A DNA stretch of 25,006 nucleotides from Spirochaetia bacterium UBA5368 (GTDB taxonomy: Bacteria; Spirochaetota; UBA4802; UBA5368): contig DHPI01000010.1 in NCBI GenBank assembly GCA_002407865.1, forward strand, positions 8,171-33,176, in the 5' to 3' direction. Below the pieces are notes generated by a model. It saw nothing but the letters and a program-made list of their open reading frames with translations, did no database searches and was not told the origin of the DNA. How positions within the stretch are numbered: the stretch's first letter is position 1; each line of letters begins with the position of its first letter. Made by a program: the position numbers and the translations under genes. Below are positions 3,274 to 21,888 of the stretch, one piece after another.

Positions 3274-4200
3274 TCAGGCCGTTGGGTGCGCAACGCCGAT
3301 TATTTCGCGCAGGGAATGTATTTTCTCCGAGCGCATGTACGCCGCGATGCCGTCGACGCACGCCATCGCGGCGTCCGGATTTACGAGGTTCATCGTGCCG
3401 ACCGATACCGCAGAAGCCCCGGCCATGAGAAACTCGAGCACATCGCCGGTATCGGCGATGCCGCCGATGCCGATTATCGGGATATCGACCTTCGCGAAGA
3501 TTTCGTACACCATGCGGACGGCAACCGGTTTTATCGCCGGGCCGCTTAAGCCCGCCACCCTGTTATAAAAATGCGGCTTTTTTTTCTTAATATCGATTTT
3601 CATGCCCAGCAGCGTGTTGATCGCCGAAACGGCATCGGCGCCGGATTCCCTGGCTCCCCGCGCGAACTCCGCGATATCCGCAACGTTAGGCGACAGTTTC
3701 ACAATCAGCGGAACGGCGGTGACCTTTCTCACCGCCTCGACCAGCCGTGTAAACACCGGCATACTGGTGCCGAACGCCATGCCTCCCTCCTTCACGTTGG
3801 GGCAGGACACGTTAAGCTCGACCGCGACGATTCCGGGCGTGTGGGATAAAACGGCGCAAAGCTCCACGTTCTCATCGATCGAATGACCGGCAACGTTCGG
3901 GATGACCGTCGCCCCGTGCTCCAGCAGAAACGGCAGTTTCTCTCCGAGGAAGCGCTCAAGCCCGACATTCTCAAGGCCTATGGAATTGAGCATGCCCGAC
4001 GGCGTTTCCATTATCCTCGGGCCCCTGTTTCCGGGACGCGGCTTAAGCGACAGCCCCTTTGTAAACACGGCCCCCAGAGCGCCGATGTCGTAGAAACGCG
4101 AGAGTTCCTCGCCGTAGCCGGCGGTGCCCGACGCCACAGTTATGGGATTTTTGAGCCGCAACGGCCCGATTTGCACCGATGTATCAATCATGCTTTCCAC
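3274..4200 (-). CDS. pyrD: Dihydroorotate dehydrogenase, class 1B-like
   Basis: PyrD oxidises dihydroorotate to orotate using FMN in pyrimidine synthesis. The sequence shows VASGTAGYG near residue 22, FTKGLSLKPRPGN near 46, LNVSCPNVKEGG with the catalytic Cys133 typical of class 1 enzymes, VKLSPNV, and the phosphate-binding IIGIGGIADTGD and GASAVSVGT near the C-terminus. The NVSCPNVKEGG form fits class 1B, which normally pairs with the electron-transfer subunit PyrK; no pyrK is visible nearby. The start taken is GTG 4200, seven bases after GGAG; ATG 4191 would also work. A promoter sits directly upstream and a terminator-like hairpin lies just beyond that. hisC follows on the same strand. The function call is firm; the cofactor subclass is less so. 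Confidence 0.92.
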   Translation of the reverse strand: MESMIDTSVQIGPLRLKNPITVASGTAGYGEELSRFYDIGALGAVFTKGLSLKPRPGNRGPRIMETPSGMLNSIGLENVGLERFLGEKLPFLLEHGATVIPNVAGHSIDENVELCAVLSHTPGIVAVELNVSCPNVKEGGMAFGTSMPVFTRLVEAVRKVTAVPLIVKLSPNVADIAEFARGARESGADAVSAINTLLGMKIDIKKKKPHFYNRVAGLSGPAIKPVAVRMVYEIFAKVDIPIIGIGGIADTGDVLEFLMAGASAVSVGTMNLVNPDAAMACVDGIAAYMRSEKIHSLREIIGVAHPTA

Positions 4201-4225
4201 CGCAATGCTCCATTAAGTCCACCCC

Positions 4226-4254
4226 ATAACAGTACCACTCCCGCCAACCGTCAA
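4226..4254 (-). promoter_or_regulatory. Candidate sigma70-type promoter of pyrD-hisC
   Basis: Minus strand TTGACG (4249-4254), a 17-base spacer and TGTTAT (4226-4231). Transcription would begin close to 4219, giving a short leader that holds the GGAG site before the GTG start at 4200. The -35 box lies against the T tract of the hairpin at 4257-4286. Confidence 0.5.
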
Positions 4255-4256
4255 GA

Positions 4257-4286
4257 AATAAAAAGGGACACCGTTTCCGATGTCCC
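4257..4286 (-). terminator. Intrinsic terminator or attenuator hairpin upstream of pyrD
   Basis: On the minus strand GGGACATC and GGTGTCCC pair in an 8-bp stem (one G-T pair) with a 6-base loop, followed by TTTTATTT. It would stop minus-strand transcripts arriving from further upstream before they reach pyrD. No convincing minus-strand gene precedes it, which makes a leader attenuator possible. Confidence 0.5.
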
Positions 4287-4650
4287 AGAAAATCATATCC
4301 GTCTAAGGTGACAACTTTATTATTTTTCCACAGCCATCTTCCTCCGTGAAACGCCTCCCGGCAGACACTCATCTCTTTGTATTATTGTATTACCATTATT
4401 CGATGTGCGCGTCAAGAAAAATATGTAAAAAAAATAATGCGTTGCCATCAGAATTTTTTATTAGTCTTCGGCTTTGCCGGCAAAATCCACCGCGATTACG
4501 CGACGGCATGCCGTTTCCCCACACGGCGCCTGCGGCCGTTGCGAACTCAATCATGAAGCGCAACAGGCCGTTAATGTTCTTTACAAATTGAAATGAAGCT
4601 ATTCCTGTTCACACGACGCATTACAATCCAAACGTCACAGAGGCGTATGC
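4287..4650. other. Intergenic region between pyrD and apbE
   Basis: No convincing gene. On the minus strand there is a weak promoter-like pair, TTGACG (4410-4415) and TAATAC (4387-4392). It is followed by a five-codon ORF, M-A-V-E-K-stop, at 4337-4320 with GGAGG (4341-4345) only three bases upstream. On the plus strand I could not find a good promoter for apbE; TTTACA at 4580-4585 lacks a matching -10 box. The short open frames here look non-coding. Confidence 0.4.
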
Positions 4651-5679
4651 ATGATGATACGATGGAGTCCGTATTTTGCATCACTGGCAATCGCGATACT
4701 CGTCTTCTGCGGATGCGGGAGAAAGGGCGAGCTGTACACCTTCAGCCGGATGCAGATCGGCACGCTGATCAATATCACGGTAATAGCCGATACGCCGGAG
4801 CGGGGGGTCAGAGCATCGAACGCGGCATTTAGCGAAATCGCGCGCGTCGAATCTCTGATGAGCCCGAAACGCGCGGGCAGCGACATCGTATCCATCAACA
4901 ACAGCGCGTGGAAGGCACCGGTCCATATCTCCGGGGAAACATATGCGCTGATGCGTAAATCAATCGCCATTTCAGAGCAGACTGACGGCGCTTTCGACAT
5001 AACATTCGCATCGGTCGGCAAACTCTGGCAACTGGCAAATCCATCATTTGTTCCGCCTGACAGCGCAGTTGTAAAAAAGAGGCTTTTTCTTGTCAACTTC
5101 AGGAATATTAAGCTCGATGATGCAGCCCATACCGTTATGTTCAAGCACAAAGGCATACAGATCGGGCTGGGGGGCATCGCCAAGGGGCACGCGGTGGGGC
5201 TGGCGGCCGCGGCGCTGCGGCGGGAAGGGGTCAGAGCCTCAATTATCGATGCCGGCGGCGACCTGATAGTACACGGTACGAAATTCGGCAATACGTGGCG
5301 CGTGGGGCTTCGCCACCCCCGAAACGACGAAATTTTGCTGGTTTTTACCGCGCACGATGGCGACGCAATAGTTACGTCCGGGGATTACGAGCGTTACAAA
5401 ATAGTAAAGGGTGTACGATACCATCACATTCTCGATCCGCATACCGGATTCCCGGCAAAGGGGCTGATTTCAGCGACGGTGGTATGCTCTGACCCCATAG
5501 ATGCCGATGCTTACGCGACAGCGCTTTTTGTGATGGGAGGGGTCAGAGCCCGCGAATTTACCAAAAAGCACCCCGAATTGCGGGTAATTCTGATTGATGA
5601 AGGAATGAAAATATCCGCCTCAAAAGCATTGAAAAAAAGGATTACCCCCCTGGAGAAGGTAGCAATCGAGTGGTTTTAG
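4651..5679 (+). CDS. apbE: FAD:protein FMN transferase (ApbE) lipoprotein
   Basis: ApbE attaches FMN to a Thr/Ser of target proteins such as Rnf and Nqr subunits, using FAD and Mg2+. The 342-aa protein has the family blocks MQIGTLINITV near residue 34, VESLMSPKRAGSDI near 66, DGAFDITFASVGKLW near 112, IGLGGIAKGHAVG near 171, DAGGDL near 200, HHILDPHTGFPAKG near 258 and DADAYATALFVMG near 284, which holds the expected metal-binding residues. The N-terminus is a signal peptide with cysteines at 20 and 22, so an envelope lipoprotein is likely. ATG 4651 is preceded by AGAGG with a 7-base spacer. No target flavoprotein operon is nearby. The gene contains four exact copies of GGGGTCAGAGC (three sense encoding GVRA, one antisense encoding CSDP), and a fifth copy follows the stop codon. 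Confidence 0.93.
   Translation: MMIRWSPYFASLAIAILVFCGCGRKGELYTFSRMQIGTLINITVIADTPERGVRASNAAFSEIARVESLMSPKRAGSDIVSINNSAWKAPVHISGETYALMRKSIAISEQTDGAFDITFASVGKLWQLANPSFVPPDSAVVKKRLFLVNFRNIKLDDAAHTVMFKHKGIQIGLGGIAKGHAVGLAAAALRREGVRASIIDAGGDLIVHGTKFGNTWRVGLRHPRNDEILLVFTAHDGDAIVTSGDYERYKIVKGVRYHHILDPHTGFPAKGLISATVVCSDPIDADAYATALFVMGGVRAREFTKKHPELRVILIDEGMKISASKALKKRITPLEKVAIEWF
4804..4814 (+). repeat. GGGGTCAGAGC copy 1, in apbE
   Basis: Exact 11-base word, sense to apbE, encoding GVRA at residues 52-55 in a poorly conserved stretch. Confidence 0.85.
5227..5237 (+). repeat. GGGGTCAGAGC copy 2, in apbE
   Basis: Exact copy, sense to apbE, encoding GVRA at residues 193-196 just before the conserved DAGG. 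Confidence 0.85.
5486..5496 (-). repeat. GGGGTCAGAGC copy 3, antisense in apbE
   Basis: Exact copy in the opposite orientation; its complement contributes to CSDP at residues 279-282, four residues before the metal-binding DADAYAT segment. Confidence 0.85.
5539..5549 (+). repeat. GGGGTCAGAGC copy 4, in apbE
   Basis: Exact copy, sense to apbE, encoding GVRA at residues 297-300. Confidence 0.85.
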
Positions 5680-5686
5680 TGTGGAT

Positions 5687-5697
5687 GGGGTCAGAGC
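5687..5697 (+). repeat. GGGGTCAGAGC copy 5, after apbE
   Basis: Exact copy eight bases after the apbE stop codon, in the gap between two convergent genes. It is the only copy that is clearly outside every plausible coding frame. Confidence 0.85.
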
Positions 5698-5721
5698 CCT
5701 TAAAGATCTATCTTCAACAAA

Positions 5722-5748
5722 GCCGGCATGTTTTAACGTAAAGCCGGT
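5722..5748 (-). terminator. Weak terminator-like hairpin at the end of the 1148-aa lipoprotein gene
   Basis: On the minus strand ACCGGC (5748-5743) can pair with GCCGGC (5727-5722) across a 15-base loop, followed by TTTGTTG. The stem starts in the stop codon. The loop is long and the T run short, so this is tentative. Confidence 0.3.
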
Positions 5749-8700
5749 CAATATGAACCTGTATCAGCAACATGCTCATAATAAATATCTGGTGCAGTAG
5801 CGCCATCTCTGTAATCCAGCCATAACGGTGTTAATCCGAAAGGCGCAGCTCCGTCATCCCAGTACAGCAATTTCAAATCCAGCGTATCATAGCCATAGGA
5901 GGTGGGAGTCGATATAAACACATCCGGAGCCCACACCGCGGCGCCAGCGCTGGTAAACCGCTGGCCGAAGAGAGCGAATCCGGCCGTTCCAAAATATCTG
6001 CCATCAAACCACGCGATATAAAATTCGCTGGCTCCCGCAGCGGCATCCGCCACAATCACCTGCGGCAATCTGCAATCATATGATGCAGCCGTGCTTGAGA
6101 CATTGATCGCGGCAAATCCTGGAGCAGCGGTAAGGCCAGCGGCGTTGTACGCCACGGCCCTGATGTGATAATAGTCGGCCGGAATGTGCCCGGCATTGTC
6201 CCGATACGTGACGATAACGCGATTGGCCGTACCGGCCACCGTATCGACCGCCATGTGCGGTTCATAGCCGGTGGCGCTCACTGCGTTGTTCCAGGCCACG
6301 GCGCCGGTGGCCCCGTTGATTCGAAGTACGCGTATCGAGCCTGAACCGTTCTTCGCCAGCAGGTACGCTCCCCCTACAGCGCCGGTTGATCTGGTGGGAA
6401 GCACCTGCACAATGCTGTACCCCGTAAGCGTCGCATCAGTGATCCCGGCGTCAGAGACCTGGTCTGCCAGCGGATCGCTCCACACAAACGCCCCGTCGGC
6501 AGAGACCTTTTTCCACCGTATCGCTCCGGCGTTCTGATAGAAAATCATCACGTCGCCCGCCCCGTCCGAGAGGGCCACGGGATTACTGCTTATACCGCTG
6601 GTTGTGACCGCAAACACGGCGCCCAGCGGCGATCCGTCGGCCAGATTAAACGCGCGCGCCATTACAAAATCACCGGCATCGATAAAGGCTACAAGAAATC
6701 CGCGGCGCTGAAATATGATGTATTTTTCCAGCGTTCCATTGAATATATCCGCCGAAAGGGTAAGCGTCGCGCCTGCGACATTTGTCACCATTGCGGAAAG
6801 ATCGGCGTCGATATTGTACACGACATCGCCGGTGGCAACACCAACACCCCCATAGTTCAATCCCGTAAAATCCGTAAGCGTAAAATCGGCCGGCGCCACC
6901 GCCGGCGAGAAGCCCACATCCTCCGTCCCGGCTGGCGTCATGGGAAGACGAAGAATAGAATAACTGTCACCACTATTCATTATATCAGAGCTGAGCTGCA
7001 AAGCATAGTCGGTATCCTCCGCAAGGTTAATGGCGTTGACACGCGCCCATGTGGCCGCGACGGTATTATTGTTTTCATTTACCACCACATCGTTCGCCAG
7101 GACGGTGACGACGGGATTGAAAAGCACCACCGGCAGCTGATCCCACAATGGATTGGCAACCGCTTCCGAAGCGAGCGGCCCGGCTATACGTGGATACACG
7201 TTGAAAGGATTACCTGCTGCGAGACCGTGATTTACATCGGTCCGGATGCGGTAGGCGCCGCCGCCAAGATCGGTTTTGTTGGTGACAATTGCCCATGTTG
7301 TTCCATTGCAGTTGATTACATCATTCACGACAATCAGCGGAAGGTTAATATCGTCAGCGTTGAATTCTGTGACCGAAAAGACAGAATCAACCGTTCCCGT
7401 AGCTACCGCCGTCTGGTCGGCAAGATAATAGCTCGTTGCCGCCAGGCTGGTGACGCCGGTGCTCCGTATTACAAACCTGAACACGTTAAATGAATCGACG
7501 TCAAATATTGCGGCCTGGCTCCAGGGGCCGCCACCCCATATAAGCAGATCATTGGCCGCCAGCCCGAGAACCGAAAAATCGGTATCTTTATCGTATAGCA
7601 GATTCGTCGCCACACCGTTTGCCGGCATGTCCGCCGTTCCTGAGCTTATGGGAGCAGGCCATTCGTGGGCCAGGGCCGCCGAGTACGTAGAACCGGCCTT
7701 GACGGCAATGCCAAGCGGCACGCCTTGCGCCGCTGCGTCCACGCCCCAGCGGAAGCCCACCACACCCACATTATTATACACCATCTTGGCGTAGAGATCA
7801 TTCCCGACCGTTGCATCGCGGTAAACGAGGACGACATCGTTAAAACCGTTGCTCACGGCCTCTATCCCGCTCTGATTATTCGCGTGGTTTGACACGGCCG
7901 CGCCGTTCGCGCCCCATTGCGGCGCGCCTGCGGTATTAAAGAATTGCCCGTAAATATCGTCATTACCGCCATGACTTTCCCAGAAAACAAATGCAGAACC
8001 ATCAGAAACCTGCACTGTCCTGATGGCATCCTGGCCGTTTGCGGCGCTGGTGAGTGGAAAATTGACGCCTGCCGTTATATCCGCGTCAGTAATGAACGTA
8101 GATTCCGCTGAAGTGAGCGCGCCCGCCCTTACCCTGTAATAATATACAGTCGAGCGTAACAGGCCGGTAATCTGGATCTTATGCAACGTATGAAGGTCTT
8201 TTCCATCCCCGTCCCAATCGGTTTCCGCAAGTGATGTCCAAGCATATGGGGCCCCCGAATTAACATCATAGTCCACAAAGCAGGTCGTACGGTCCGACGG
8301 TTTGTTGGTGGTAAAGTAGATCCATGCGGATGTCGGCGTAACCGAATCGACCCATACGGAATTGATTGCCAGCGGACCGACCGTATCGGGGTCCGGCTCA
8401 GTGGTAAACGACCACGTATCGTTACCATCTTCAAACAGCGGATTGGATACTGTATCTGTAATTGCATTCGTAAGATCTACGGTATATACCTGGTTATAGG
8501 CAAGCGGATTGAGATCGAGCCTGTATGTTTTTGAATTTACCGGCGTAACACCTGCGCCTGCTGCCGGGAATAGCGTAAAACTTGCCGTATCGATGCTTGC
8601 CAGAGACATGTCCCTCGTGAAAGTGACCTCAACATACGCAAGATCGGCGCTCACGCCTGTCGCGCCATTGGCCGGAAACCGCGTCGCGGCGACCACCCTC

Positions 8701-9194
8701 GGCAAAGCGGGCGGCAAGCTGTCGGCGGCCGTCGTGAATGTGGTATTGTACACAGCATCCAGATTCAGCGGCGGGACACTGAAATCCTGAATTGCTGTTG
8801 TAAGCTGCAATGTATGCAGATGGCTGTATTGCAAATTCCCTGCTACCGGCCCCGTGATATTGACAATCACAGTATTGCCGCCCGAGACCGGCGTTATCGA
8901 ATTAATAGCCATCACCTCAGATGTAACGGTATCTCTAATAATGAGACTGGCCGCATCTATTGTTGCGGGATCAATTGCCCTGGAAAATACCAGAATAATG
9001 TCCGCATCAACAGGGATGTCGATATCGCCAGTATCCGGATATATGCCTATCAGGCGGGGGATGTTGTCGCCAGGTTCGGTGCCGGTAAAAGTTCCCGTAA
9101 TGGCCCCGGGGACAACTGTCGGCGCCTCATTTGCACACGCTGTAATAAATACCAGCACGGCAACCGCAATGCCTGTATACAAGACCTTTTTCAT
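5748..9194 (-). CDS. Very large lipoprotein with two SbsA-type Ig domains and an Fn3-like domain
   Basis: From ATG 9194 the product is 1148 aa, beginning with a lipoprotein signal whose lipobox is ITAC (Cys20). Two Big_5/SbsA-type Ig-like domains follow: about residues 44-135 (opening PRLIGIYPDTGDIDIPVDAD) and 150-245 (FPANGATGVSADLAYVEVTF). An Fn3-like segment (about 255-350) contains SAWIYFTTNKPSDRT and ends in STVYYYRVRAG. The remaining roughly 780 residues are beta-rich, with propeller-like strands such as GSAFVFWESHGGNDDIYGQF and SEFYIAWFDGRYFG; I cannot assign a family there. The frame is open to 9284, but that adds a non-signal stretch, so 9194 is chosen although its Shine-Dalgarno sequence is poor. 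A cell-surface or outer-membrane role is likely; binding partner unknown. It diverges from the 786-aa protein across an inverted repeat and converges on apbE. Confidence 0.8.
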   Translation of the reverse strand: MKKVLYTGIAVAVLVFITACANEAPTVVPGAITGTFTGTEPGDNIPRLIGIYPDTGDIDIPVDADIILVFSRAIDPATIDAASLIIRDTVTSEVMAINSITPVSGGNTVIVNITGPVAGNLQYSHLHTLQLTTAIQDFSVPPLNLDAVYNTTFTTAADSLPPALPRVVAATRFPANGATGVSADLAYVEVTFTRDMSLASIDTASFTLFPAAGAGVTPVNSKTYRLDLNPLAYNQVYTVDLTNAITDTVSNPLFEDGNDTWSFTTEPDPDTVGPLAINSVWVDSVTPTSAWIYFTTNKPSDRTTCFVDYDVNSGAPYAWTSLAETDWDGDGKDLHTLHKIQITGLLRSTVYYYRVRAGALTSAESTFITDADITAGVNFPLTSAANGQDAIRTVQVSDGSAFVFWESHGGNDDIYGQFFNTAGAPQWGANGAAVSNHANNQSGIEAVSNGFNDVVLVYRDATVGNDLYAKMVYNNVGVVGFRWGVDAAAQGVPLGIAVKAGSTYSAALAHEWPAPISSGTADMPANGVATNLLYDKDTDFSVLGLAANDLLIWGGGPWSQAAIFDVDSFNVFRFVIRSTGVTSLAATSYYLADQTAVATGTVDSVFSVTEFNADDINLPLIVVNDVINCNGTTWAIVTNKTDLGGGAYRIRTDVNHGLAAGNPFNVYPRIAGPLASEAVANPLWDQLPVVLFNPVVTVLANDVVVNENNNTVAATWARVNAINLAEDTDYALQLSSDIMNSGDSYSILRLPMTPAGTEDVGFSPAVAPADFTLTDFTGLNYGGVGVATGDVVYNIDADLSAMVTNVAGATLTLSADIFNGTLEKYIIFQRRGFLVAFIDAGDFVMARAFNLADGSPLGAVFAVTTSGISSNPVALSDGAGDVMIFYQNAGAIRWKKVSADGAFVWSDPLADQVSDAGITDATLTGYSIVQVLPTRSTGAVGGAYLLAKNGSGSIRVLRINGATGAVAWNNAVSATGYEPHMAVDTVAGTANRVIVTYRDNAGHIPADYYHIRAVAYNAAGLTAAPGFAAINVSSTAASYDCRLPQVIVADAAAGASEFYIAWFDGRYFGTAGFALFGQRFTSAGAAVWAPDVFISTPTSYGYDTLDLKLLYWDDGAAPFGLTPLWLDYRDGATAPDIYYEHVADTGSY

Positions 9195-9301
9195 GGTATT
9201 AATCTGCTGAATTCGTTGAAATATCCCGATTGTGTTCAATATAGTAAAAAATAATAAACATAACAAAATTCCTGATGTCGTCATGCCCGAGTGATTATTT
9301 T

Positions 9302-9389
9302 GTTGATTTCTTTCTGTTTATTGCACTACCATGATAGACAGATAGTACTACCGGCAAATAGAATAACAGTGCAATAAAAATAAATCAAC
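9302..9389. repeat. Imperfect inverted repeat between two divergent surface-protein genes
   Basis: The left arm has GTTGATTT (9302-9309) and TTTATTGCACT (9317-9327). The right arm has AGTGCAATAAA (9368-9378) and AAATCAAC (9382-9389). These are exact complements in mirrored order, with spacers of 7 and 3 bases inside the arms and 40 bases between them. The right arm ends five bases before the ATG at 9395. It may be an operator, a paired promoter element or an mRNA leader structure. Confidence 0.7.
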
Positions 9390-9394
9390 CAGAA

Positions 9395-11755
9395 ATGACG
9401 CGAAAAAAACACTCTAGTATAGTCATTATGGCAATCGCCGTGTCGCTTCTCCTGACTGCGCGGGGAAGTGGAACTATTAACTCGGTCACACTCACGCCGG
9501 CAAATCCCACACTTCTTAGCAGCGGGCTTGGCTATTACCTGGCGGGCCTTACATATAATTTTGACGTGAATGTCATCGATCCGGATATAACCGGATGGGC
9601 CCAGCTTACCGACGTGCGTATAACCATCCCGAATTCGACCAACATACTACTCGTCATTAACCCGTCGGGTACGGGAACCGATCTGCCGGTAACGGTCAGC
9701 TCGGGCAACGTAAACGCGGTTGCCGATATCACCGGTACGTATAACAACTGCACGGTGACATTCAAGGTTACGTTCAGATGGGACACGCCTGAATCGGCGT
9801 ATACGGCGTCACGGAACGTAACTGCGTCTGCAACAAGTTCCAATACGGTTACAAATACACGACAGGTGCCGTACGGCGTCTGCTCGACATTGCGGGTTTT
9901 TAATTTTTCACAGGACGGCGTTGCCGCCGACGGGATGATCAATCCGTGGCATTCTGCCTTCAGTGTCAGCGGTATCGTTGTCTATAATGTTCCGGGGGCA
10001 AGCGGAACCGACACGCCCGTAACTGTAGACCCCGGCGAAATCACGGGCGCAGAGCTGTATCTCGACGGGGCCCCAACCGGTTTTACCGATACCATACCAG
10101 GCGGATCGAATGAATACAGCATGGCGGTTGCCGCCGCATATATTACCGCAATGGGCACTCATACCTGGGCAATGCAGGTGACCGTGGCAACGCCCGGGGG
10201 GCCGGTTACATCCACGAATCAACTCGCAATCAATTGCGATCAGGTTGAAATAACCGCGATTCAGTTCATCAACGGCGGGGGCGTGGATTCGCCCTCATAT
10301 TATCGCAGCGTAAATGCGCCAGGAACGCAGGTGCGCATTACCGCGCGCATGCGCAATTCACTCGGGCCGATGGTCGGCAACACAACGATAACCATCCGCA
10401 ATACCACCGAAGGAGCGGATTTTCCGGTTCAAATCAACAACGGACAGACCACGGGTGTGGCAAATGTGCCGAATCCAACGGTGCCCGCCAGCGATACCGA
10501 GCAGAATGTATATAGAATACAAACCATCAGCGGCGGCGCGTACGACAATGAACAAAACGATTTTACCCGCATAAATCAGCCTGCCAGTCCAGTCATCTAC
10601 TGGGACAACGACGATCCGCCCGGAGCCAATACCGCCCCGTTTACCGCATGGGGCGGGTTGTCACAAACTGCCTTTTCGCTTACATTCAACTGGACCGCGC
10701 TCAATGCCGCCCTTCCCGACTATGATGGGGATTTCTATACCTACAGGGTGTATTACCGTGAATCCGGCGCGACGGACTGGACGATTGTTGACCGCACCAC
10801 GACAGGGTACGCATCACTGGGCACGATCTCGACAAACAGCGTCACCATTCAGCCGCTCCGGTCGCTGACGACTTACGAATACTATATTACCGCAATCGAC
10901 GTGTTCGGACAGGATGTGGCGCCGGCAAACAGCCTTTACGATCCCCTTCCCGGCCCGGGTTATGGTTCGGCCAGCACCCTGGCTTCATCAATTGTCGTGT
11001 CCATTTCGGACGGCATAACAACGTACGATGACAACTCTTTTACCATAAATCCCGCAGCTTCGGCGCGGCCTCTGCGAAAAGCCAACACGAGGGTATCGAT
11101 GTTTATCATCGCAGAGGGCGGTCTTCCTGATGTGGTAAACCTTATCGTCGCACAGGATGGTGCTGGTTCACTGGTAACCGGCGGCGTTATAACATCAAGC
11201 CTGGTCGAAGGTACAGACTATTACAGAATTTCCAGTATTAAGAAGGGGCCAAACGAATGGGTAGCGTACATTCCCGAGACGCTTCCCATAATGGCGGCGG
11301 CAAGCAATGTACGGTTCATCATTGAGGCAAACAAGGGGGGTGTTATCTCCTATTCAGATCACAACTCTGAAACCGAGCCGGCTCCCGGCAATCCCAACGA
11401 TTACGAATGGACGTTTACGATAGGTATCGCAACCGCATTTACGCCATGGCCCACACGCATATTGAACAATGTCATAACAGATAAAAATCCCGTTGCCTAC
11501 CCGGCATATTATCTCTCCGATGACGCATATGTTACCATACAGGTTTTTGATATCAAGGGAAGGCCGCTGGTCACGCTCACCGACAACGAATATCGAAGGG
11601 GCGGACAGAATATAAAGGAAAACGGCTGGCGCGGCGATAACAAGGCGCGCAACAAGCTTGGCATGGGGCTCTATTATATCCATATCGAGGCAAAGCGTGT
11701 ATCAGATGGAAAAACCATTCTCAACAGTTTTCAAAAGGTTGTTATTGCGAAATAA
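9395..11755 (+). CDS. Exported protein with Fn3 domain and FlgD-like Ig C-terminus, 786 aa
   Basis: The N-terminus (MTRKKHSSIVIMAIAVSLL) is a signal peptide without a lipobox cysteine. Residues 30-390 are beta-rich and unassigned. An Fn3-like domain spans about 393-505 (ending TTYEYYITAIDVFGQDV). The last ~100 residues, from about 683, resemble the FlgD Ig-like fold seen at the C-terminus of many secreted proteins: VTIQVFDIKGRPLVTL, then GGQNIKENGWRGDN, then GMGLYYIHIEA, ending FQKVVIAK. In Bacteroidota comparable C-termini act as type IX sorting signals; whether this one does is unknown. The start ATG lacks a clear Shine-Dalgarno sequence and sits just after the inverted repeat. A hairpin begins at the stop codon. 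The role is probably extracellular or envelope structural; no enzyme motif was seen. Confidence 0.75.
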   Translation: MTRKKHSSIVIMAIAVSLLLTARGSGTINSVTLTPANPTLLSSGLGYYLAGLTYNFDVNVIDPDITGWAQLTDVRITIPNSTNILLVINPSGTGTDLPVTVSSGNVNAVADITGTYNNCTVTFKVTFRWDTPESAYTASRNVTASATSSNTVTNTRQVPYGVCSTLRVFNFSQDGVAADGMINPWHSAFSVSGIVVYNVPGASGTDTPVTVDPGEITGAELYLDGAPTGFTDTIPGGSNEYSMAVAAAYITAMGTHTWAMQVTVATPGGPVTSTNQLAINCDQVEITAIQFINGGGVDSPSYYRSVNAPGTQVRITARMRNSLGPMVGNTTITIRNTTEGADFPVQINNGQTTGVANVPNPTVPASDTEQNVYRIQTISGGAYDNEQNDFTRINQPASPVIYWDNDDPPGANTAPFTAWGGLSQTAFSLTFNWTALNAALPDYDGDFYTYRVYYRESGATDWTIVDRTTTGYASLGTISTNSVTIQPLRSLTTYEYYITAIDVFGQDVAPANSLYDPLPGPGYGSASTLASSIVVSISDGITTYDDNSFTINPAASARPLRKANTRVSMFIIAEGGLPDVVNLIVAQDGAGSLVTGGVITSSLVEGTDYYRISSIKKGPNEWVAYIPETLPIMAAASNVRFIIEANKGGVISYSDHNSETEPAPGNPNDYEWTFTIGIATAFTPWPTRILNNVITDKNPVAYPAYYLSDDAYVTIQVFDIKGRPLVTLTDNEYRRGGQNIKENGWRGDNKARNKLGMGLYYIHIEAKRVSDGKTILNSFQKVVIAK

Positions 11756-11782
11756 TATGTGCGTTAAAACGCAATATTATTT
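11750..11782 (+). terminator. Long hairpin at the stop codon of the 786-aa gene
   Basis: AAATAATAT (11750-11758), a bulged G and TGCGTT pair with AACGCAATATTATTT (11768-11782), giving about 15 base pairs around a 2-base AA loop (4-6 bases if the closing pairs open). The stop codon TAA (11753-11755) lies in the left arm. The downstream sequence is only moderately T-rich, so it is a probable terminator or 3' stabiliser. Confidence 0.5.
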
Positions 11783-11887
11783 GCCCTTATGCGCACGTCC
11801 ATGATTATAATGGTTTGGATACAACAGCATCTCGCGGTTAATGCGTACTTGTATAGCATGTAGATTTACAAATATCATACGCGATGC

Positions 11888-11906
11888 ATGTTTCAGAACA
11901 TATAAT
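11888..11906 (+). promoter_or_regulatory. Candidate -10 box and small inverted repeat before the ASH-repeat gene
   Basis: A perfect TATAAT (11901-11906) lies 26 bases before ATG 11933. ATGTT-TCAG-AACAT (11888-11901) is an inverted repeat touching the -10 box and could be an operator. No good -35 box is at the expected distance. Confidence 0.35.
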
Positions 11907-11932
11907 TGAATTTTTGGATTGGAAACAGACAA

Positions 11933-14900
11933 ATGCGGTTCCCTTCTATTAAAATTCGTTTTACGCTGCTCTGGATCACATGTATGGTGTTCGGATTGTT
12001 TTCCTGTTACTTCGGCTCGCCTGAGATTGTAGAATACCCTGATGAGAACGCGCCAGAAATCAACATCCGTCAGGGTAGTACGCTTATACACTCCGGCGAC
12101 ACCTTCGATTTCGGCTCCATTCCGACATCCGGTACCCAATCAATTACCTACGCCATCGAGAATCTCGGAAGAGGCGATCTTGTATTAAAGGGAACTCCCA
12201 TCGTCGTTATAAGCGGCGCCGGTGCGGCAATGTTTTCTGTGTCAACACAACCGGCATCCCCGATTGCGATGTTCAGCTACAGATACTTTACAATTGATTT
12301 TACCCCGGCAGCCGCAGCAGTATATAATGCAACCGTAACGATTATCAGCAACGATCCCGACGAAAGTTCCTTTTCATTTACTATTACGGGGACAGGTATT
12401 ACTGTTGCAGCGCCTGAAATTAATGTGCAGGTCAGCGGAGCCGACATCCTTTCACCTGCCGGCAACGACGATTTCGGCAGTGTAAATATCGGCACACCGG
12501 GCAATCATGTATATACCATTTATAATATAGGGACTCTTACTCTTACATTAACCGGATCTCCTCTCGTTCTGCTTACGGGTTCCAGCGATTTTTCCGTAAC
12601 AGCTGATCCCGTGTCACCGGTCATCCCATCGGGCAGCACATCTTTTACAATACGTTTCACTCCATCGTCGGCCGGTGTAAAATCCGCCACTGTCACAATT
12701 GTCAATAACGACAGCGATGAAAATCCTTATACATTTACAATAACTGGCACCGGATCTGTCGCGCCAGCGCCGGAAATAAATATACGGCATGGCTCAACGC
12801 CTCTTCTTTCTGGCGCGGGAACATTCAGCTTCGGCAATATCAACCAGGGTTTTACAAGCGCGGCAACCACGTTTACTATTGAGAACAACGGGACAAGTCC
12901 GCTTCTGCTGACAGGCGGCCCAAATTACGTGACATCAAGCGATCCGCAGTTTGCGATAACCGCACAACCCATCACCCCCGTCGCAGCGCCCGGAACAACG
13001 ACATTCATAATGACATTTACTCCATCAGCGCTTGGATTGCAATCATCCACTATTTCTATTGCAAACAATGATGCGGATGAAAATCCATATACATTTACGG
13101 TAAATGGAACGGGTGTGGCAATACCAGAAATCAACATTTTGGACGACGCGTCTGCGACACTCCTAAGCGGCAGCGCCAAAAGCTTCGGAACTACGCCAGT
13201 CGGCACTCCGAAACCGCTGCTTTTTACAATTCAAAATCTTGATGCAACCAGTACGCTCAATCTGCCATCAAATCCGATTGTCACTATCACCGGCGATAGC
13301 GTTTTCACTGTGACCACTCAACCTGCGTCCAGTTCTGTCGCCCCGGGCGGAAATATACCCTTTTGGGTCACCTTTAATCCTGACACGGCGGGGGTTTTAA
13401 ATACGGCCATACTCTCAATAGCCAACGACGATCCCGATGGCAACGAAAATCCATACATCATCACCATATCGGGAACGGGGACAGCAATTCCGGAACCGGA
13501 AATAAGCGTATACCAGGGAGTCAGTACGAACTGCATACTGTCCGGCGGCACATACGATTTCGGCGGCATGAGCGTCGGCGGGACCGCCATCGATATTACG
13601 TTCACAATCGAAAATATCGGGGCGGCAAATCTCGACCTTACCGCCGGAGTAATAGTGGCCGGGGCTGGCTTCAGTCGCATTCTTGATGCCGCCACTCCGA
13701 TAGCACCTGGCGCATCAACCACATTTACCATACGTTTTAACGCGCCTGGAGCCGGAGCATATACGGGAACGGTTACTATCGCCAATAACGATTCCGACGA
13801 AAATCCCTACACCTTCACCGTGACCGCCACAGGCATGAATCCCGAGATACAAGTGCGCGAGGGCACAACCAATATCGCCGACGGGGGAACTTACACGTAC
13901 GGAAATGTTAATGTCGGGTCGTCAAGACAGTTAACGTTCACAATAGAAAATGGTGCCGCCGCGACATCTAACCTGTATCTGACCGGCGCTCCCAAAGTCT
14001 CCATCACCGGTTCGGCAGATTTCGTCATCGCAAGCCAGCCGGCTTCAACCAGCATAAATCCGGGGGGCAGTACAACCTTTGCCGTACGATACACGCCATC
14101 CGGCACGGGGGCGGATACCGCAACCATCTCAATAGCCAACAATGACGTGAATGAAAATCCATATAATTTTACAATTACCGGAACCGGCGTTAATCCGGAG
14201 ATTGAGGTGCGGGATCCATCAAATGTACCGCTCTTTGATGGCACAGGATCATACAGCCACGGAAATCAGAAGGTAAACACTGCCGGAGCGGCTCTGACCT
14301 ATACCATACGCAATACCGGCACTATGGGCGACCTGCACCTGCTCGGGGCTCCGGCATCGCGGGTCGTAGTACACGGGGCCGATGCCGTATATTTCGCGGT
14401 CGTCCAGCCAGCCTCCGGCACCATTGCGCCCGGCGGCAGCACCACATTCACTATTGCCTTTAATCCGACGGGGATACCCGGCATCGGCGCAAAAAGCGTG
14501 ACGGTCTCAATCTATAATGACGATTTAGATGAATCTATTTACAGCTTTACGGTAACCGGCGCGGGCACTGTTCCGGATATTAACGTAACCTACGGCTCCA
14601 ACGACTTCGGCAACGTAAAGCAGGGTACCGCCAGCGGCGCTCTCGTTTTCACCATAGCAAATAACGCACCCGCGGGCTCCAATGCGCCTCTGGTGCTCAA
14701 CGGTACTCCCCGAGCGCGCCTTACCGGCGTCAATCCCGGCGATTTTACTATCACCGTTCAGCCGAGCACGCCCATCAATCCTGCAGCCACCTCAACCATG
14801 CAGATCACCTTCACTCCGTCGTCCACTGGGCTCAGAACCGCCACCGTGGAGATCGACAGCGATGATCCCGACACACCGACATACTCCTTTACTATCCGGG

Positions 14901-15262
14901 GCGCGGGCACCGTTCCGGATATTAACGTAACCTACGGCTCCAACGACTTCGGCAACGTAACGGTAAGCACAACAAGCGCACCATTAACCTTTACACTGCA
15001 AAATACAGCCGTATTAGCCAGCAACGCAGATTTAATTTTAACTGGTACGCCCTTTGTAATTATTACAGGTGCGGACGCTGCCATGTTCACCATTACAGTG
15101 CAACCTTCTTCCCCTGTTGGTCCAGCCTCAAATTCAAACTTTGAGATTACTTTTACACCGGGAAGTACTGGCCTCAAAACGGCGACAGTCGAAATAGCAA
15201 GCGATGATCCTGACGCCTTTGAAAATCCCTATACCTTCTCCATACAGGGTACCGGGAATTGA
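11933..15262 (+). CDS. Lipoprotein-like protein of nine choice-of-anchor-D (ASH-like) modules
   Basis: A 1109-aa exported protein. After a signal segment ending in GLFSC come nine tandem modules of 105-120 aa, starting near residues 40, 160, 279, 397, 520, 637, 754, 880 and 994. Each opens with PEIN(I/V) or PDINV, has an (S/F)FG(N/S) turn and a T(F/Y)TI(E/Q)N strand, then P(I/V)xPGxxTTF, FTPxxxGxxxATVxI and NDDxDENPY(T/S)FTITGTG. This matches the choice-of-anchor-D/DUF1573-like Ig fold. Modules 8 and 9 are shorter because they lack the SG hairpin near the start. The open frame begins at a TTG (11906), but ATG 11933 directly precedes the signal peptide. The lipobox is imperfect (F at -2). The 3' end stops nine bases from the convergent TPR gene. 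A surface stalk or adhesin is the likely role. Confidence 0.85.
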   Translation: MRFPSIKIRFTLLWITCMVFGLFSCYFGSPEIVEYPDENAPEINIRQGSTLIHSGDTFDFGSIPTSGTQSITYAIENLGRGDLVLKGTPIVVISGAGAAMFSVSTQPASPIAMFSYRYFTIDFTPAAAAVYNATVTIISNDPDESSFSFTITGTGITVAAPEINVQVSGADILSPAGNDDFGSVNIGTPGNHVYTIYNIGTLTLTLTGSPLVLLTGSSDFSVTADPVSPVIPSGSTSFTIRFTPSSAGVKSATVTIVNNDSDENPYTFTITGTGSVAPAPEINIRHGSTPLLSGAGTFSFGNINQGFTSAATTFTIENNGTSPLLLTGGPNYVTSSDPQFAITAQPITPVAAPGTTTFIMTFTPSALGLQSSTISIANNDADENPYTFTVNGTGVAIPEINILDDASATLLSGSAKSFGTTPVGTPKPLLFTIQNLDATSTLNLPSNPIVTITGDSVFTVTTQPASSSVAPGGNIPFWVTFNPDTAGVLNTAILSIANDDPDGNENPYIITISGTGTAIPEPEISVYQGVSTNCILSGGTYDFGGMSVGGTAIDITFTIENIGAANLDLTAGVIVAGAGFSRILDAATPIAPGASTTFTIRFNAPGAGAYTGTVTIANNDSDENPYTFTVTATGMNPEIQVREGTTNIADGGTYTYGNVNVGSSRQLTFTIENGAAATSNLYLTGAPKVSITGSADFVIASQPASTSINPGGSTTFAVRYTPSGTGADTATISIANNDVNENPYNFTITGTGVNPEIEVRDPSNVPLFDGTGSYSHGNQKVNTAGAALTYTIRNTGTMGDLHLLGAPASRVVVHGADAVYFAVVQPASGTIAPGGSTTFTIAFNPTGIPGIGAKSVTVSIYNDDLDESIYSFTVTGAGTVPDINVTYGSNDFGNVKQGTASGALVFTIANNAPAGSNAPLVLNGTPRARLTGVNPGDFTITVQPSTPINPAATSTMQITFTPSSTGLRTATVEIDSDDPDTPTYSFTIRGAGTVPDINVTYGSNDFGNVTVSTTSAPLTFTLQNTAVLASNADLILTGTPFVIITGADAAMFTITVQPSSPVGPASNSNFEITFTPGSTGLKTATVEIASDDPDAFENPYTFSIQGTGN
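14558..14618 (+). repeat. 61-bp direct repeat, copy A (start of ASH module 8)
   Basis: Sixty of 61 bases match copy B exactly 342 bp (114 codons) downstream. It covers the junction of modules 7/8 and encodes the PDINVTYGSNDFGNV opening. Confidence 0.9.
14900..14960 (+). repeat. 61-bp direct repeat, copy B (start of ASH module 9)
   Basis: Second copy; the only mismatch with copy A is T at 14569 versus C at 14911. The remainder of modules 8 and 9 is far more diverged, and module 9 is visibly richer in A and T. Confidence 0.9.
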
Positions 15263-15271
15263 GAGGAGTGT

Positions 15272-15838
15272 TTATTGATGCTGTTTAAGAACCAGAAGTT
15301 TGTTTTTTGCGGCGGTAATACCGAGTGAAAGGGCCTTGTGATAATCAGTCGCAGCTCTGACGCTATCGCCTTTCATGGAAAAAGCATTACCCCGTCCCAG
15401 GTATGCAATCCCGAATTTTGGATTCGCGGAAAGAACTGCTGTATAATCCTTAATAGATTCATCATAATCCCCTGAATAATAATACGCAATTGCACGGTTA
15501 TTTAGCGCAGAAGTGTTCTCTGGATTCAGTTTAATAGCTTCACTAAAATCCGCAATGGCTTGAGGATATTCCCCTTTTCCTAGATACGCTACTCCACGAT
15601 TATAATATACCATCACGTCCTGTTCATAGTCGAGTATATCCGAATAGTCCCTGATAGCGGAGTCGTAATCGCCTTTTTTCAAATTCTCTATACCCCTAAT
15701 TTTAAGTTTATTTATATCTTCCGCTGATCCTGATTTATGCAGAATATACATAATCCCTAAACTTATCATTACCGCAATAAAAAGAACAACTGCAATATAT
15801 TTCCCATACCCTACCTTTTTCACCTGTTCAAATTTCAT
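15272..15838 (-). CDS. Membrane-anchored TPR protein, 188 aa
   Basis: From ATG 15838 the protein has a short basic cytoplasmic end, one transmembrane helix at about residues 12-34 (YIAVVLFIAVMISLGIMYIL), then about four tetratricopeptide repeats. Typical TPR stretches are YNRGVAYLGKGEYPQAIADF, ALNNRAIAYYYSGDYDESI and AYLGRGNAFSMKGDSVRA. TPR units mediate protein-protein contacts, and the single helix points the repeats to the periplasm or outer face of the membrane. The open frame extends to 15889, but the extra residues precede a natural start and only a weak purine-rich site is present. It is convergent with the ASH-repeat gene nine bases away and lies downstream of the radical SAM gene on the same strand, so it may share that transcript. 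The specific role is unknown. Confidence 0.8.
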   Translation of the reverse strand: MKFEQVKKVGYGKYIAVVLFIAVMISLGIMYILHKSGSAEDINKLKIRGIENLKKGDYDSAIRDYSDILDYEQDVMVYYNRGVAYLGKGEYPQAIADFSEAIKLNPENTSALNNRAIAYYYSGDYDESIKDYTAVLSANPKFGIAYLGRGNAFSMKGDSVRAATDYHKALSLGITAAKNKLLVLKQHQ

Positions 15839-15909
15839 TTTCGTTTTTCCGTTTCCTTTTAATATTCCCGAATATATCAATGTACCCACCAGAGATACCG
15901 TTCTTTCCT

Positions 15910-16812
15910 TCAGCCGAACGGCTCGTCCCTTGCGAAATCAGGCAGGTAGTTACCGGCGCTTCCGAATTCCTGCACCCATCCCCGGTAAAAACCGAGCCGG
16001 TAAAATTCATCCAGCACCTCCTCGTATTCCTCCCGCGTGATTGTCCTGCCAAGTGTCGCATGATGTTTCACCGCCGGCACAGGGTAATACTGCGACATAA
16101 GCGATACATGCACCGACGTTGAAAGCTCTTCGGCAATGGCGCGCAGGCACTTTTTGCTGTTTTCCACATGCCCCGGCAATATCAGATGACGGATAATCAT
16201 GCCGGATGTAATTGCGCCTTCATCATCGCAGAGAATGTTCGAGCCCTTCTGCCTGTACATTTCTCGCAGCGCTCTGACCCCAACGCCGGGATAATTGCCG
16301 GCGCCTGAAAACTCCCGCGCGAGATCACTCTCCATATATTTAAAATCAGGAAGGTAGACATCGATTACGCCATCAAGCGATGCAAGCTTTTCCGGCCGGT
16401 CATAGGCGTTAGTATTCATCACATAGACAGGCCGGCGGCCGGTCGCATTGATGCCATGAATTATTTCCCTCATCTGCGAAATCATATGCGACGGAGAGAC
16501 AAATCCAACGCATTTAACTCCCGCATCGAGCATTTTGGAAACAGTATCGATAACGAATTCGAGCAATGCGTCACTCACCGGCACGCTGTTATTGCTGATC
16601 TGATAGTTCTGGCAATAGACACACTGCAAATTGCAATGATAAAAGAAAATATTGCATATGCCGCTCCTCCCCGTTATGACCGGCTCCTCACCACGATGCA
16701 GACACACTGACGCGACGGATAATCTCTCCCCTGTTCGACAGAAGCCCTGTGCCGCGGTTCTGTGGATTGCGCGGCACGCCCGCGGACAGATATCACAATG
16801 CATGTGGGTCAT
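15910..16812 (-). CDS. PflX-type radical SAM protein (COG1313 family)
   Basis: A 300-aa radical SAM protein similar to the uncharacterised PflX group, annotated as putative pyruvate formate-lyase activating enzymes. The N-terminus has the family's extra cysteines in CDICPRAC (6, 9, 13) with Cys25 in QGFCRTGE. The SAM cluster motif CxxxCxxC is CNLQCVYC (Cys60, 64, 67). Further family blocks are VGFVSPSHMI, VMNTNAYDRPE, DVYLPDFKYM, GMIIRHLILPGH and SLMSQYYPVPA. Length is normal. The true substrate is not established for the family, and no formate-lyase gene is in the window. ATG 16812 is used; an ATG three codons on is possible. Residues 178-181 (GVRA) are encoded by one of the GGGGTCAGAGC words. 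A 376-bp AT-rich spacer lies upstream. Confidence 0.88.
   Translation of the reverse strand: MTHMHCDICPRACRAIHRTAAQGFCRTGERLSVASVCLHRGEEPVITGRSGICNIFFYHCNLQCVYCQNYQISNNSVPVSDALLEFVIDTVSKMLDAGVKCVGFVSPSHMISQMREIIHGINATGRRPVYVMNTNAYDRPEKLASLDGVIDVYLPDFKYMESDLAREFSGAGNYPGVGVRALREMYRQKGSNILCDDEGAITSGMIIRHLILPGHVENSKKCLRAIAEELSTSVHVSLMSQYYPVPAVKHHATLGRTITREEYEEVLDEFYRLGFYRGWVQEFGSAGNYLPDFARDEPFG
16271..16281 (-). repeat. GGGGTCAGAGC copy 6, in the radical SAM gene
   Basis: Exact copy, sense to the gene, encoding GVRA at residues 178-181. No residues seem to be gained compared with the usual NYPxV...REM spacing of the family. Confidence 0.85.
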
Positions 16813-17188
16813 TGCACGTTACCCGACACCCCATATGAAGCGTATTCATTAAATATACAACTTTCATATAATAAATAATACCTAACATACTCTCTATAAT
16901 AATATATGATAAAAAAGTATAAAAAAATAATTTTTATGTTGACTTTTATCAAAACCATAAATATTGAATTTATTCTCAGTTACAAACACAGTATACTACA
17001 CACAAAAAACGTTATCTGAGCAACACTTGCATATTTTCTGATTTGCGCCGTTTTCTATGCAACTGCCAGTCCGCACAGTCACCATTACGGCACTGATCAG
17101 TTGATAGATACAGTATATTGCGAATACTGATTGGATGAAACAAATATTCGTGCGACGCATATAACTACTATAATCTGCAAGGTATGAA
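16813..17188. other. AT-rich intergenic region
   Basis: A 376-bp spacer between divergent genes, very rich in A and T from about 16845 to 16990. Promoter-like words include TTGACT (16940-16945) with TATTGA 17 bases later, and a perfect TATAAT at 17169-17174, which lies too close to ATG 17189 to be easily its promoter. Short open frames across it have no gene-like features. No RNA gene was recognised. Confidence 0.4.
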
Positions 17189-17431
17189 ATGGACACACTC
17201 GATACGCCGAAAGATTTGCCTCCCGCCGATTCGGATGACATCCCAGGCGAGACCCACGCACCCCCCATACCGCTCCTCGCTGAAATAGAGCTGACTGACG
17301 AATTGTTTTCATCTCTTGAGAACTATCGCCTGGAAGGCGAGGTTATCTCAACAAGCGGCGCATCCTCTAAGGCAAACCATATGCTCGATCTAAATCCATT
17401 TATCAGTAAAACCATGGCGCTCAAAAAATAA
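17189..17431 (+). CDS. Small hypothetical protein, 80 aa
   Basis: I do not recognise this protein. It begins with an acidic, proline-rich stretch (LDTPKDLPPADSDDIPGE), has a middle segment LLAEIELTDELFSSLENY that could form a helix, and ends basic (MALKK). It has no signal peptide, transmembrane helix or cysteine. AAGG lies seven bases before the ATG, and an AT-rich promoter-type region precedes it. It is convergent with the glycosylase gene 48 bases away. The ATG of a second frame lies six bases upstream. It is probably a real gene, because the frame is isolated on this strand and has a ribosome site, but composition alone cannot prove it. Confidence 0.45.
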   Translation: MDTLDTPKDLPPADSDDIPGETHAPPIPLLAEIELTDELFSSLENYRLEGEVISTSGASSKANHMLDLNPFISKTMALKK

Positions 17432-17479
17432 ATACGAGAAAAGGGCACGACACCGGCACAGACGATAAAACCGGCGATT

Positions 17480-18370
17480 TCATTTTATCCGATACCTATC
17501 GCCTCTCCGCACGATAAATCCTTCTTGCATTAGCTCGGATACAATTTTTCCGGTAAGCCCCGCATCCTGCGCAATCGTATCGGCAAGATCATCCAGCGTT
17601 ATTCCGGGATTTCCAAGTACCGCCCTGAGTATTTTTCCGCGCCGCTGGCGATGCGAATTTTTAAATGGGCTCTGACCCCTCGTCGCCGCGCTCCTTCTGC
17701 CCGGGTTGCCGTACGACTCCTTAAGCAGTACACCGTAATCCATGAGCGCGTTATACCATCGCGATGGGTCCCTGCGATAGAGTGTTTTTTCAACGAGGGG
17801 GAATATCTGCTTGTCCATGATACCCTCCATCCCTGGGAAGAAGAAGTGGATGAATACCGTTCTGATATTTGTTTCTATAAAAACAACCGGCCTGTGAAAC
17901 GCGTAGACCGCTATCGCCGATGCTGTCGCCTTTCCGATGCCGGGCAAAAGCGAGAGATCTTCAATCGATTCGGGCAAAATACCATCATATTTTCTTTGCA
18001 GTATTTGCGCGCTCTCCCGTAATGCTACCGCCCGGCGGTTGTATCCCAGGCCCTGCCAGAGAGCCAGCACCGACGACAGTGACGCTGATGCAAGGCTGTT
18101 AAAATCGGGAAAAGCCCTGACAAAAGCCTCAAACTTGGGAATAACCCGGCTTACCTGTGTTTGCTGAAGCATTATTTCCGATACAAACACGGCATATGGG
18201 GTGGGATTCACCCTCCACGGCAGCACGCGCCCAGATTTGCGATAGTGCGTAAGAATTATTCTCCTGAACGTCGCGATACTTTCCCCGGTAATACCGCAAT
18301 CGCACACGCGCAGGGGGTCAGAGCCTCTCGTATCGTTATACGTTAAACCTGAAGTTGACGATATCGCCAT
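17480..18370 (-). CDS. HhH-GPD DNA glycosylase, MutY-like, without the iron-sulfur cluster
   Basis: A base-excision repair glycosylase of the HhH-GPD superfamily, 296 aa from ATG 18370. The MutY-like block RVLPWRVNPTPYAVFVSEI holds Glu65, the expected catalytic acid, followed by MLQQTQV. The helix-hairpin-helix is LLPGIGKATASA (141-152). Where MutY has the catalytic Asp in DGNVxR, this protein has Glu166 (IETNIRT). The C-terminal C-x6-C-x2-C-x5-C cluster is absent; instead RGQSPFKNSHRQRRGK leads to a winged-helix-like tail (LDDLADTIAQDAGLTGKIVS). Adenine removal opposite 8-oxoguanine is inferred, not certain. The ATG overlaps the end of the ychF-like gene by 35 bp; GTG 18307 would avoid this and is a real alternative. 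Two GGGGTCAGAGC words lie in this frame. Confidence 0.82.
   Translation of the reverse strand: MAISSTSGLTYNDTRGSDPLRVCDCGITGESIATFRRIILTHYRKSGRVLPWRVNPTPYAVFVSEIMLQQTQVSRVIPKFEAFVRAFPDFNSLASASLSSVLALWQGLGYNRRAVALRESAQILQRKYDGILPESIEDLSLLPGIGKATASAIAVYAFHRPVVFIETNIRTVFIHFFFPGMEGIMDKQIFPLVEKTLYRRDPSRWYNALMDYGVLLKESYGNPGRRSAATRGQSPFKNSHRQRRGKILRAVLGNPGITLDDLADTIAQDAGLTGKIVSELMQEGFIVRRGDRYRIK
17669..17679 (-). repeat. GGGGTCAGAGC copy 7, in the glycosylase gene
   Basis: Exact copy, sense to the gene but in a different reading frame from the apbE copies, contributing to RGQS at residues 231-234. Confidence 0.85.
18314..18324 (+). repeat. GGGGTCAGAGC copy 8, at the glycosylase 5' end
   Basis: Exact copy, antisense to the glycosylase frame (contributing to GSDP, residues 16-19). 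If the real start is GTG 18307, this copy is intergenic, between the ychF-like stop codon and the glycosylase start. Confidence 0.85.
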
Positions 18371-21813: not shown

Positions 21814-21888
21814 GGGGTGTTAGCTCAGTTTGGTTAGAGCGCCTGCCTGTCACGCAGGAGGCCGAGGGTTCAAGTCCCTTACACCCCG
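21814..21888 (+). tRNA. tRNA-Asp (GTC)
   Basis: A complete cloverleaf. The acceptor stem is GGGGTGT (21814-21820) with ACACCCC (21881-21887) and discriminator G. The D stem is GCTC/GAGC. The anticodon stem is CCTGC/GCAGG around loop CTGTCAC, giving anticodon GTC (21849-21851), which reads Asp codons. The T arm contains GGTTCAAGTCC. The 3' CCA is not encoded and must be added after transcription. A strong terminator follows directly. Confidence 0.95.

Follow-up and report, generated by a model that had tools for sequence, protein, structure and literature searches.

Why does one 11-base word, GGGGTCAGAGC, recur without a changed base inside several protein-coding genes of an uncultured spirochaete, in different frames and on both strands? 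The question is raised by a stretch of 25,006 nucleotides from Spirochaetia bacterium UBA5368 (assembly GCA_002407865.1, contig DHPI01000010.1, positions 8,171 to 33,176), hereafter the window, in which the word lies in or beside an apbE gene, a radical-SAM gene and a mutY-like frame. In apbE, the word arose in place and is constrained as DNA; across the genome and its relatives, it is linked to genes for repetitive extragenic palindromic (REP)-associated tyrosine transposases (RAYTs), and its type co-varies with theirs. Comparison of these sequences suggests that GGGGTCAGAGC is probably a recognition word of RAYTs, with sites in genes that form in place and stay fixed once they are there.

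The word in the window and its preservation in apbE

The original prediction reported eight exact copies of the word in the window, and all of them lie at the positions and on the strands that it gave. None of 100 dinucleotide shuffles reached eight (shuffle mean 0.00, largest 0), and a scan of the window with one mismatch allowed found no extra copy (0.23 expected). Its further statements, that C follows five of the eight copies and that the coding copies read GVRA three times and CSDP once in apbE, GVRA in the radical-SAM gene, and GQS and GSDP in the mutY frame, also proved correct. Most copies lie inside genes, as it had said, with two reservations: the copy at 5687 is just past the apbE stop codon, and that at 18314 is possibly outside the true mutY gene. 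The features are as follows.

4651..5679, forward strand: apbE (FAD:protein FMN transferase, PF02424) with four in-frame words; from homologues and codon alignment
4804..4814, forward strand: word, GVRA in apbE; exact match, identical in all five word-bearing apbE genes
5227..5237, forward strand: word, GVRA in apbE; exact match, codon alignment
5486..5496, reverse strand: word on the opposite strand, SDP in apbE, forming an inverted pair with 5539-5549; exact match, codon alignment
5539..5549, forward strand: word, GVRA in apbE; exact match, codon alignment
5687..5697, forward strand: word directly past the apbE stop codon; exact match, alignment
15910..16812, reverse strand: radical-SAM gene (PF04055) with one word; profile match
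16271..16281, reverse strand: word, GVRA in the radical-SAM gene, at the same codons in G003, G005 and G007; exact match, alignment
17480..18370, reverse strand: mutY-like adenine glycosylase frame with two words; profile and structure comparison
17669..17679, reverse strand: word, GQS in C-terminal mutY; all 21 aligned relatives ungapped at this site
18314..18324, forward strand: word close to the end of ychF, where the N-terminal part of the mutY frame is not conserved; exact match, alignment

To see how such words come to stand in a gene, we compared apbE across relatives. The gene was found in 35 of 39 relatives, and 29 of the 35 with a match were aligned, at loci chosen by gene and not by word; the named close ApbE homologues belong to Spirochaetota. 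Four apbE genes from the neighboring genus g2 (58-60% protein identity) carry the word at all four window sites, at the same codons and on the same strand, and these loci also have it directly downstream of the gene. In the 25 other relatives, there is no word at those codons, and the word columns are ungapped in 25, 25, 25, and 24 of the 25; two of them, from another family (L128 and L130), have the word three bases away and in another frame. Since relatives without these words align without gaps, the apbE words are substitutions without change of length, and an origin by insertion was rejected for them.

Across the five word-bearing apbE genes, all 12 codons that lie wholly inside words are identical in all five, compared with only 17 of 134 other codons for conserved residues (Met and Trp left out; Fisher p 4e-10). 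AGA is used for 15 of the 15 arginines in words and for 2 of the 168 arginines elsewhere. The conserved footprint is the 11 bases, adjacent bases mostly varying, and at the GVRA sites, outgroups mostly have other residues. With codons frozen within the words, it is the DNA on which selection or drive acts, and the peptide is a consequence; what is preserved in apbE is the DNA word and not a peptide. This strongly supports the view taken in the original prediction, which had named the same bases at the same sites through ordinary codon and protein conservation as the result that would speak against it; checked on the orthologues, ordinary conservation fails as an explanation.

Two further observations concern apbE. 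In G003 (contig 22; L131, ~4200-4350), a second copy of the apbE stretch that the inverted words enclose lies ~1.2 kb downstream of the gene and is bounded by the same two words. A 98% identical ApbE protein (P0001) is longer by three residues immediately next to the site of the SDP word.

Linkage of the word to RAYT genes

The source genome (3.41 Mb, 86 contigs, 83% complete; the window is part of contig 7) was searched for the 11-mer and its one-mismatch forms, a count that the original prediction had proposed, and 53 exact copies were found as against 0 for a reversed control word. One-mismatch matches add 30, of which 8 read AGGGTCAGAGC and one includes an N, while the control gives 15 matches at up to one mismatch. 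We call the word sharp because near-misses, the AGGG form aside, are about as rare as expected by chance. Open frames of at least 200 codons hold 32 of the 53 words, which is an upper bound for in-gene copies; those of apbE, radical SAM, and mutY are certainly in or beside genes. At least five copies are present in 34 of 45 other genomes of the order, and 11 of the 45 have none or one. In the rest of the phylum, 250 genomes were counted; no genome there exceeds the 9 copies of G157, and the majority lack the word.

Profile matches and a predicted fold identify the proteins beside the word as REP-associated tyrosine (Y1, HUH) transposases. All five Y1_Tnp (PF01797) genes of the source genome score over the cut-off, and the HFH (HUH) motif is present in four of the four RAYT sequences inspected. 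Two RAYTs were tested against NF047646 (REP_Tyr_transpos), one giving E 1.7e-21 and 76.7 bits (cut-off 80) and the second 52.5 bits. The predicted fold of a close RAYT homologue (mean predicted local distance difference test score, pLDDT, 92.2) has the REP-bound RAYT 4er8 as its best structural match (E 7.6e-9). A sequence search of the Protein Data Bank with a RAYT gave no match.

A genome search for Y1/RAYT transposases had also been suggested by the original prediction, and four of the five PF01797 genes proved to have words within 2 kb. These neighborhoods contain 15 of the 53 words, where 0.33 are expected; the binomial p of 5e-21 assumes independent copies, and clustered copies are not independent. 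Over all RAYT loci compared, GGGGTCAGAGC is found within 1.5 kb at 46 of 66, with at least two copies at 39; of the 55 loci selected by RAYT alone, regardless of words, 35 have it within this distance. Around RAYTs, the word stands in short direct arrays and in inverted copies; inverted copies flank the RAYT at L166, L168, L172, L178, and on contig 30 of the source genome, and the copies on contig 1 all run in one direction. At L053 (2930-2940), the frame of a RAYT itself includes the word, read as GVRA, at its C-terminal end. Around the fifth RAYT of the source genome (L040, contig 36) stands a different, palindromic repeat, CGCGGATTCGAATCCGCG, and RAYTs in G010, G031, and G037 likewise lie amid palindromic repeats.

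Word type follows RAYT clade. Other repeated words occur at RAYT loci of the order, namely GTGTCAGAGC, GTCAGAGTAA, GGTGCCAGAG, GCTCAGAGC or GCTCAGAGTAA, and GGGACGGTGG. On a tree of 61 of the 66 RAYT proteins (five shorter than 90 residues were dropped), with 50 proteins labeled by hand from word counts and 11 unlabeled, the word labels require five changes, which is the minimum possible, compared with 11.8 on average for shuffled labels (0 of 200 as low). A simple match between presence of the word and of PF01797 over the 39 relatives was also tried and fails; the signal is carried by RAYT subtype instead.

The window itself contains no RAYT. Its gene order matches the RAYT loci of G001, G003, and G005, all of genus g2, where the RAYT lies between homologues of a 797-codon frame (9362-11752) and the radical-SAM gene. 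The window resembles a RAYT locus from which the RAYT has gone, or in which it was never retained, while the words remain. Roughly at the g2 RAYT position, the window has a 1118-codon frame (11906-15262) with degenerate repeats of ~342-366 bases. In G001 and G005, apbE is ~7 kb from a RAYT; in G003 and G006, the two lie on separate contigs or a RAYT was not detected. None of the 50 apbE and mutY loci showed a RAYT, their flanks of ~1.5 kb being too short to reach one, and the G005 RAYT sits just beyond.

Origin of the in-gene words and rival explanations

If GGGGTCAGAGC is a RAYT recognition word, the copies in genes could have come about in the following way. The RAYT would bind or nick the word, presumably in single-stranded DNA, as the available text of Corneloup et al. 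(2021, PMC8266576) describes for other TnpAREP enzymes of the family. Genes near present or former RAYT positions would then gain the exact word through in-place substitutions, using any frame and strand that the protein tolerates, so that codon and amino-acid choice is overridden. Such words could be created by (i) point mutation and capture by selection or (ii) short-tract conversion initiated by the RAYT, and RAYT activity, in cis or in trans, may keep them base-perfect. As a more specific and tentative version, which we think possible and would not yet favor, the RAYT may nick near-cognate single-stranded sites, with short-tract repair from existing copies writing the perfect 11-mer and correcting its decay, a form of 11-base homing.

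The radical-SAM and mutY genes bear on these steps. Besides the site at 16271, G003 and G007 share a second radical-SAM word site, at which G005 has one mismatch to the word, and only G005 has a third; the own-genome and genus-g2 loci were fetched for holding words, and orthologue pairs of this kind are thus biased toward shared words. For mutY, 21 relatives were aligned from among the strongest mutY matches, chosen by gene, and the words stand at differing sites in the window and in G005 and G007. In the 19 others, mutY and the flanks retrieved with it are word-free, and there is no PF01797 match within 100 kb on the contig of mutY, some of these contigs being short; all 19 genomes except G013 have words at other places. 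The 17669 site shows no gap against the solved MutY 8uuc either. An extra codon at one mutY site of G005 and G007, and another beside one radical-SAM copy of G003, indicate that a small indel can accompany a word. In G001, both genes are broken by deletions, and in the alignment, the words stay in the remnants, close to the deletion ends. At one mutY site, G001 and G005 differ by two bases inside the word, which fits stepwise change, and the scarcity of near-miss forms is what rapid correction or strong selection would leave.

Several observations weigh against a RAYT recognition word. Although 22 of the 53 words lie within 10 kb of a detected RAYT, the other 31 are farther off, and the fifth RAYT has no GGGGTCAGAGC nearby. 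There is no RAYT beside the words in the window, on the mutY contig of G007, or in G006, which means that continued RAYT action there must be in trans or past. The GGGGTCAGAGC label alone needs three changes on the tree and falls in several RAYT clades; this word may be the ancestral type, or it may have more than one origin. Finally, PF01797 is present in seven of nine word-free relatives, and none was detected in 3 of 30 word-bearing ones; many of the compared genomes are fragmented drafts, and RAYTs often lie at contig ends, which makes their absence unreliable.

Part of this would be expected if the word were instead a host signal (regulatory, chromosome-organizing, or for repair), read by a host protein or a domesticated RAYT and kept by purifying selection, with RAYT genes merely among its sites. 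Base-perfect conservation over saturated synonymous divergence, the persistence of words in a window without a RAYT, and the distant copies all speak for such a site. However, the word changes with RAYT clade, and single genes contain many copies, which differ in strand and reading frame. No common function joins apbE, radical SAM, mutY, ubiE, and the U32 peptidase, and mutY is word-free in the 19 relatives in which no RAYT was seen nearby. A host signal is therefore unlikely in our judgment, though it deserves serious weight, and we lean slightly toward a RAYT-dependent process over a host function because the words track RAYT neighborhood and type and not gene function. The U32 peptidase gene, which adjoins a RAYT in G017 (L201), has four words; a Protein Data Bank sequence search with the peptidase gave no match.

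It is very improbable that the in-gene copies are short REP-like or miniature inverted-repeat transposable element-like units inserted by transposition. The arrays beside RAYTs do resemble repeat arrays, and RAYTs are multi-copy in G012 and G016, but the unchanged length at the four apbE sites and at mutY 17669 speaks against insertion and refutes it for the apbE copies. In addition, an 11-base insertion would shift the frame, and near-miss decay products are scarce. An attempt to define a mobile unit with these multi-copy RAYTs yielded repeated upstream arrays and no clean element ends. Nor do the words share a hairpin: in 51 contexts of 41 bases, the mean z was -0.2 against flank shuffles, with 3 of 51 below -2, and no REP hairpin structure was found on these fold statistics. 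Of the option raised in the original prediction, a REP-type unit moved by a RAYT, the association with RAYTs is upheld by linkage in position, by co-variation of word and RAYT on the tree, and by the GGGGWSAS motif of TIRYT transposases, whereas the apbE copies are at odds with movement of a unit by transposition.

DNA uptake sequences of competent bacteria are short exact words that come to stand in genes by substitution and are kept at the DNA level. The word here resembles them in being sharp and exact, in lying in genes on both strands, and in arising by substitution. It differs in having far fewer copies (53 in 3.4 Mb), in clustering at RAYTs, in varying in type with RAYT clade inside one order, and in that the order includes 11 genomes with at most one copy. 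Neither regular spacing over the genome nor independence of RAYT type is seen. From copy number, position, and word type, we consider an uptake, Chi-like recombination, or replication/segregation word even more improbable than inserted repeats, and the uptake, Chi, and chromosome-protein options of the original prediction are unsupported. That GVRA and SDP are conserved peptides with the DNA following can practically be dismissed: close relatives do share the peptides, but other copies of the word read GSE, GQS, SDP, or ALTP, outgroups lack the peptides, and for apbE, ordinary codon or protein conservation is rejected on codon identity and AGA use.

Likeness to known RAYT systems and minor observations

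In the available text of Di Nocera et al. (2013, PMC3733652), the flanking inverted repeats of TIRYT transposases share the motif GGGGWSAS, and some terminal inverted repeat families occur clustered. The system described here resembles TIRYT/TIRtron elements in that GGGGTCAG matches this motif and inverted word copies flank several g8 RAYTs. It differs in that the four RAYTs inspected here have no C-terminal helix-turn-helix (HTH) family match (E up to 0.1), whereas the accessible part of Quentin et al. (2018, PMC6006769) assigns 20 of 26 TIRYT examples to subclass 2.1, which has an HTH at the C terminus. It also differs in its in-gene, in-place, base-perfect copies, which go unmentioned for TIRYT in the available portion of PMC3733652; that paper treats REPs within genes as inserts, and over half of these encode 20 to 30 residues.

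The REP/REPIN-RAYT systems, as far as they are covered in the sections available of Bertels and Rainey (2011, PMC3116915) and in PMC8266576, are similar in that an over-represented short sequence is tied to a RAYT, with transposase and sequence co-evolving. REPs are palindromic and almost wholly extragenic, and in SBW25, 14 of 1,067 16-mers overlapped genes (PMC3116915); the word here has no common hairpin, is often in genes, and starts with GGGG rather than GTAG. The spread of REP-like sequences is called poorly understood in the abstract of PMC8266576. Among the open-licence papers listed by our searches, we found none on this word or on base-perfect cognate words formed in place in coding sequences. 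To our knowledge, the role of RAYTs for their hosts is also unsettled. Here, a RAYT-tied word sits in ordinary genes, substituted in place and frozen amid largely changed synonymous sites, and a conserved peptide such as GVRA can thus reflect a signal in the DNA and not one in the protein. Within this single order, word gains and near-miss forms are numerous, as are RAYT-loss loci, and counting these could separate selfish spread from a domesticated function.

A scan of word arrays from six sources for known RNAs found two tRNAs alone, and the window has a tRNA gene at 21814-21888. In G024, in which no PF01797 gene was found, the word lies at base 128 of contigs 7, 8, and 27, as if the assembly had broken at a repeated RAYT element. 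Word arrays in three genus-g2 genomes (L139, L144, and L150) have partly similar spacers with no Rfam match, and G008 has, at the end of contig 22 (18-123), six tandem words with a 19-base period.

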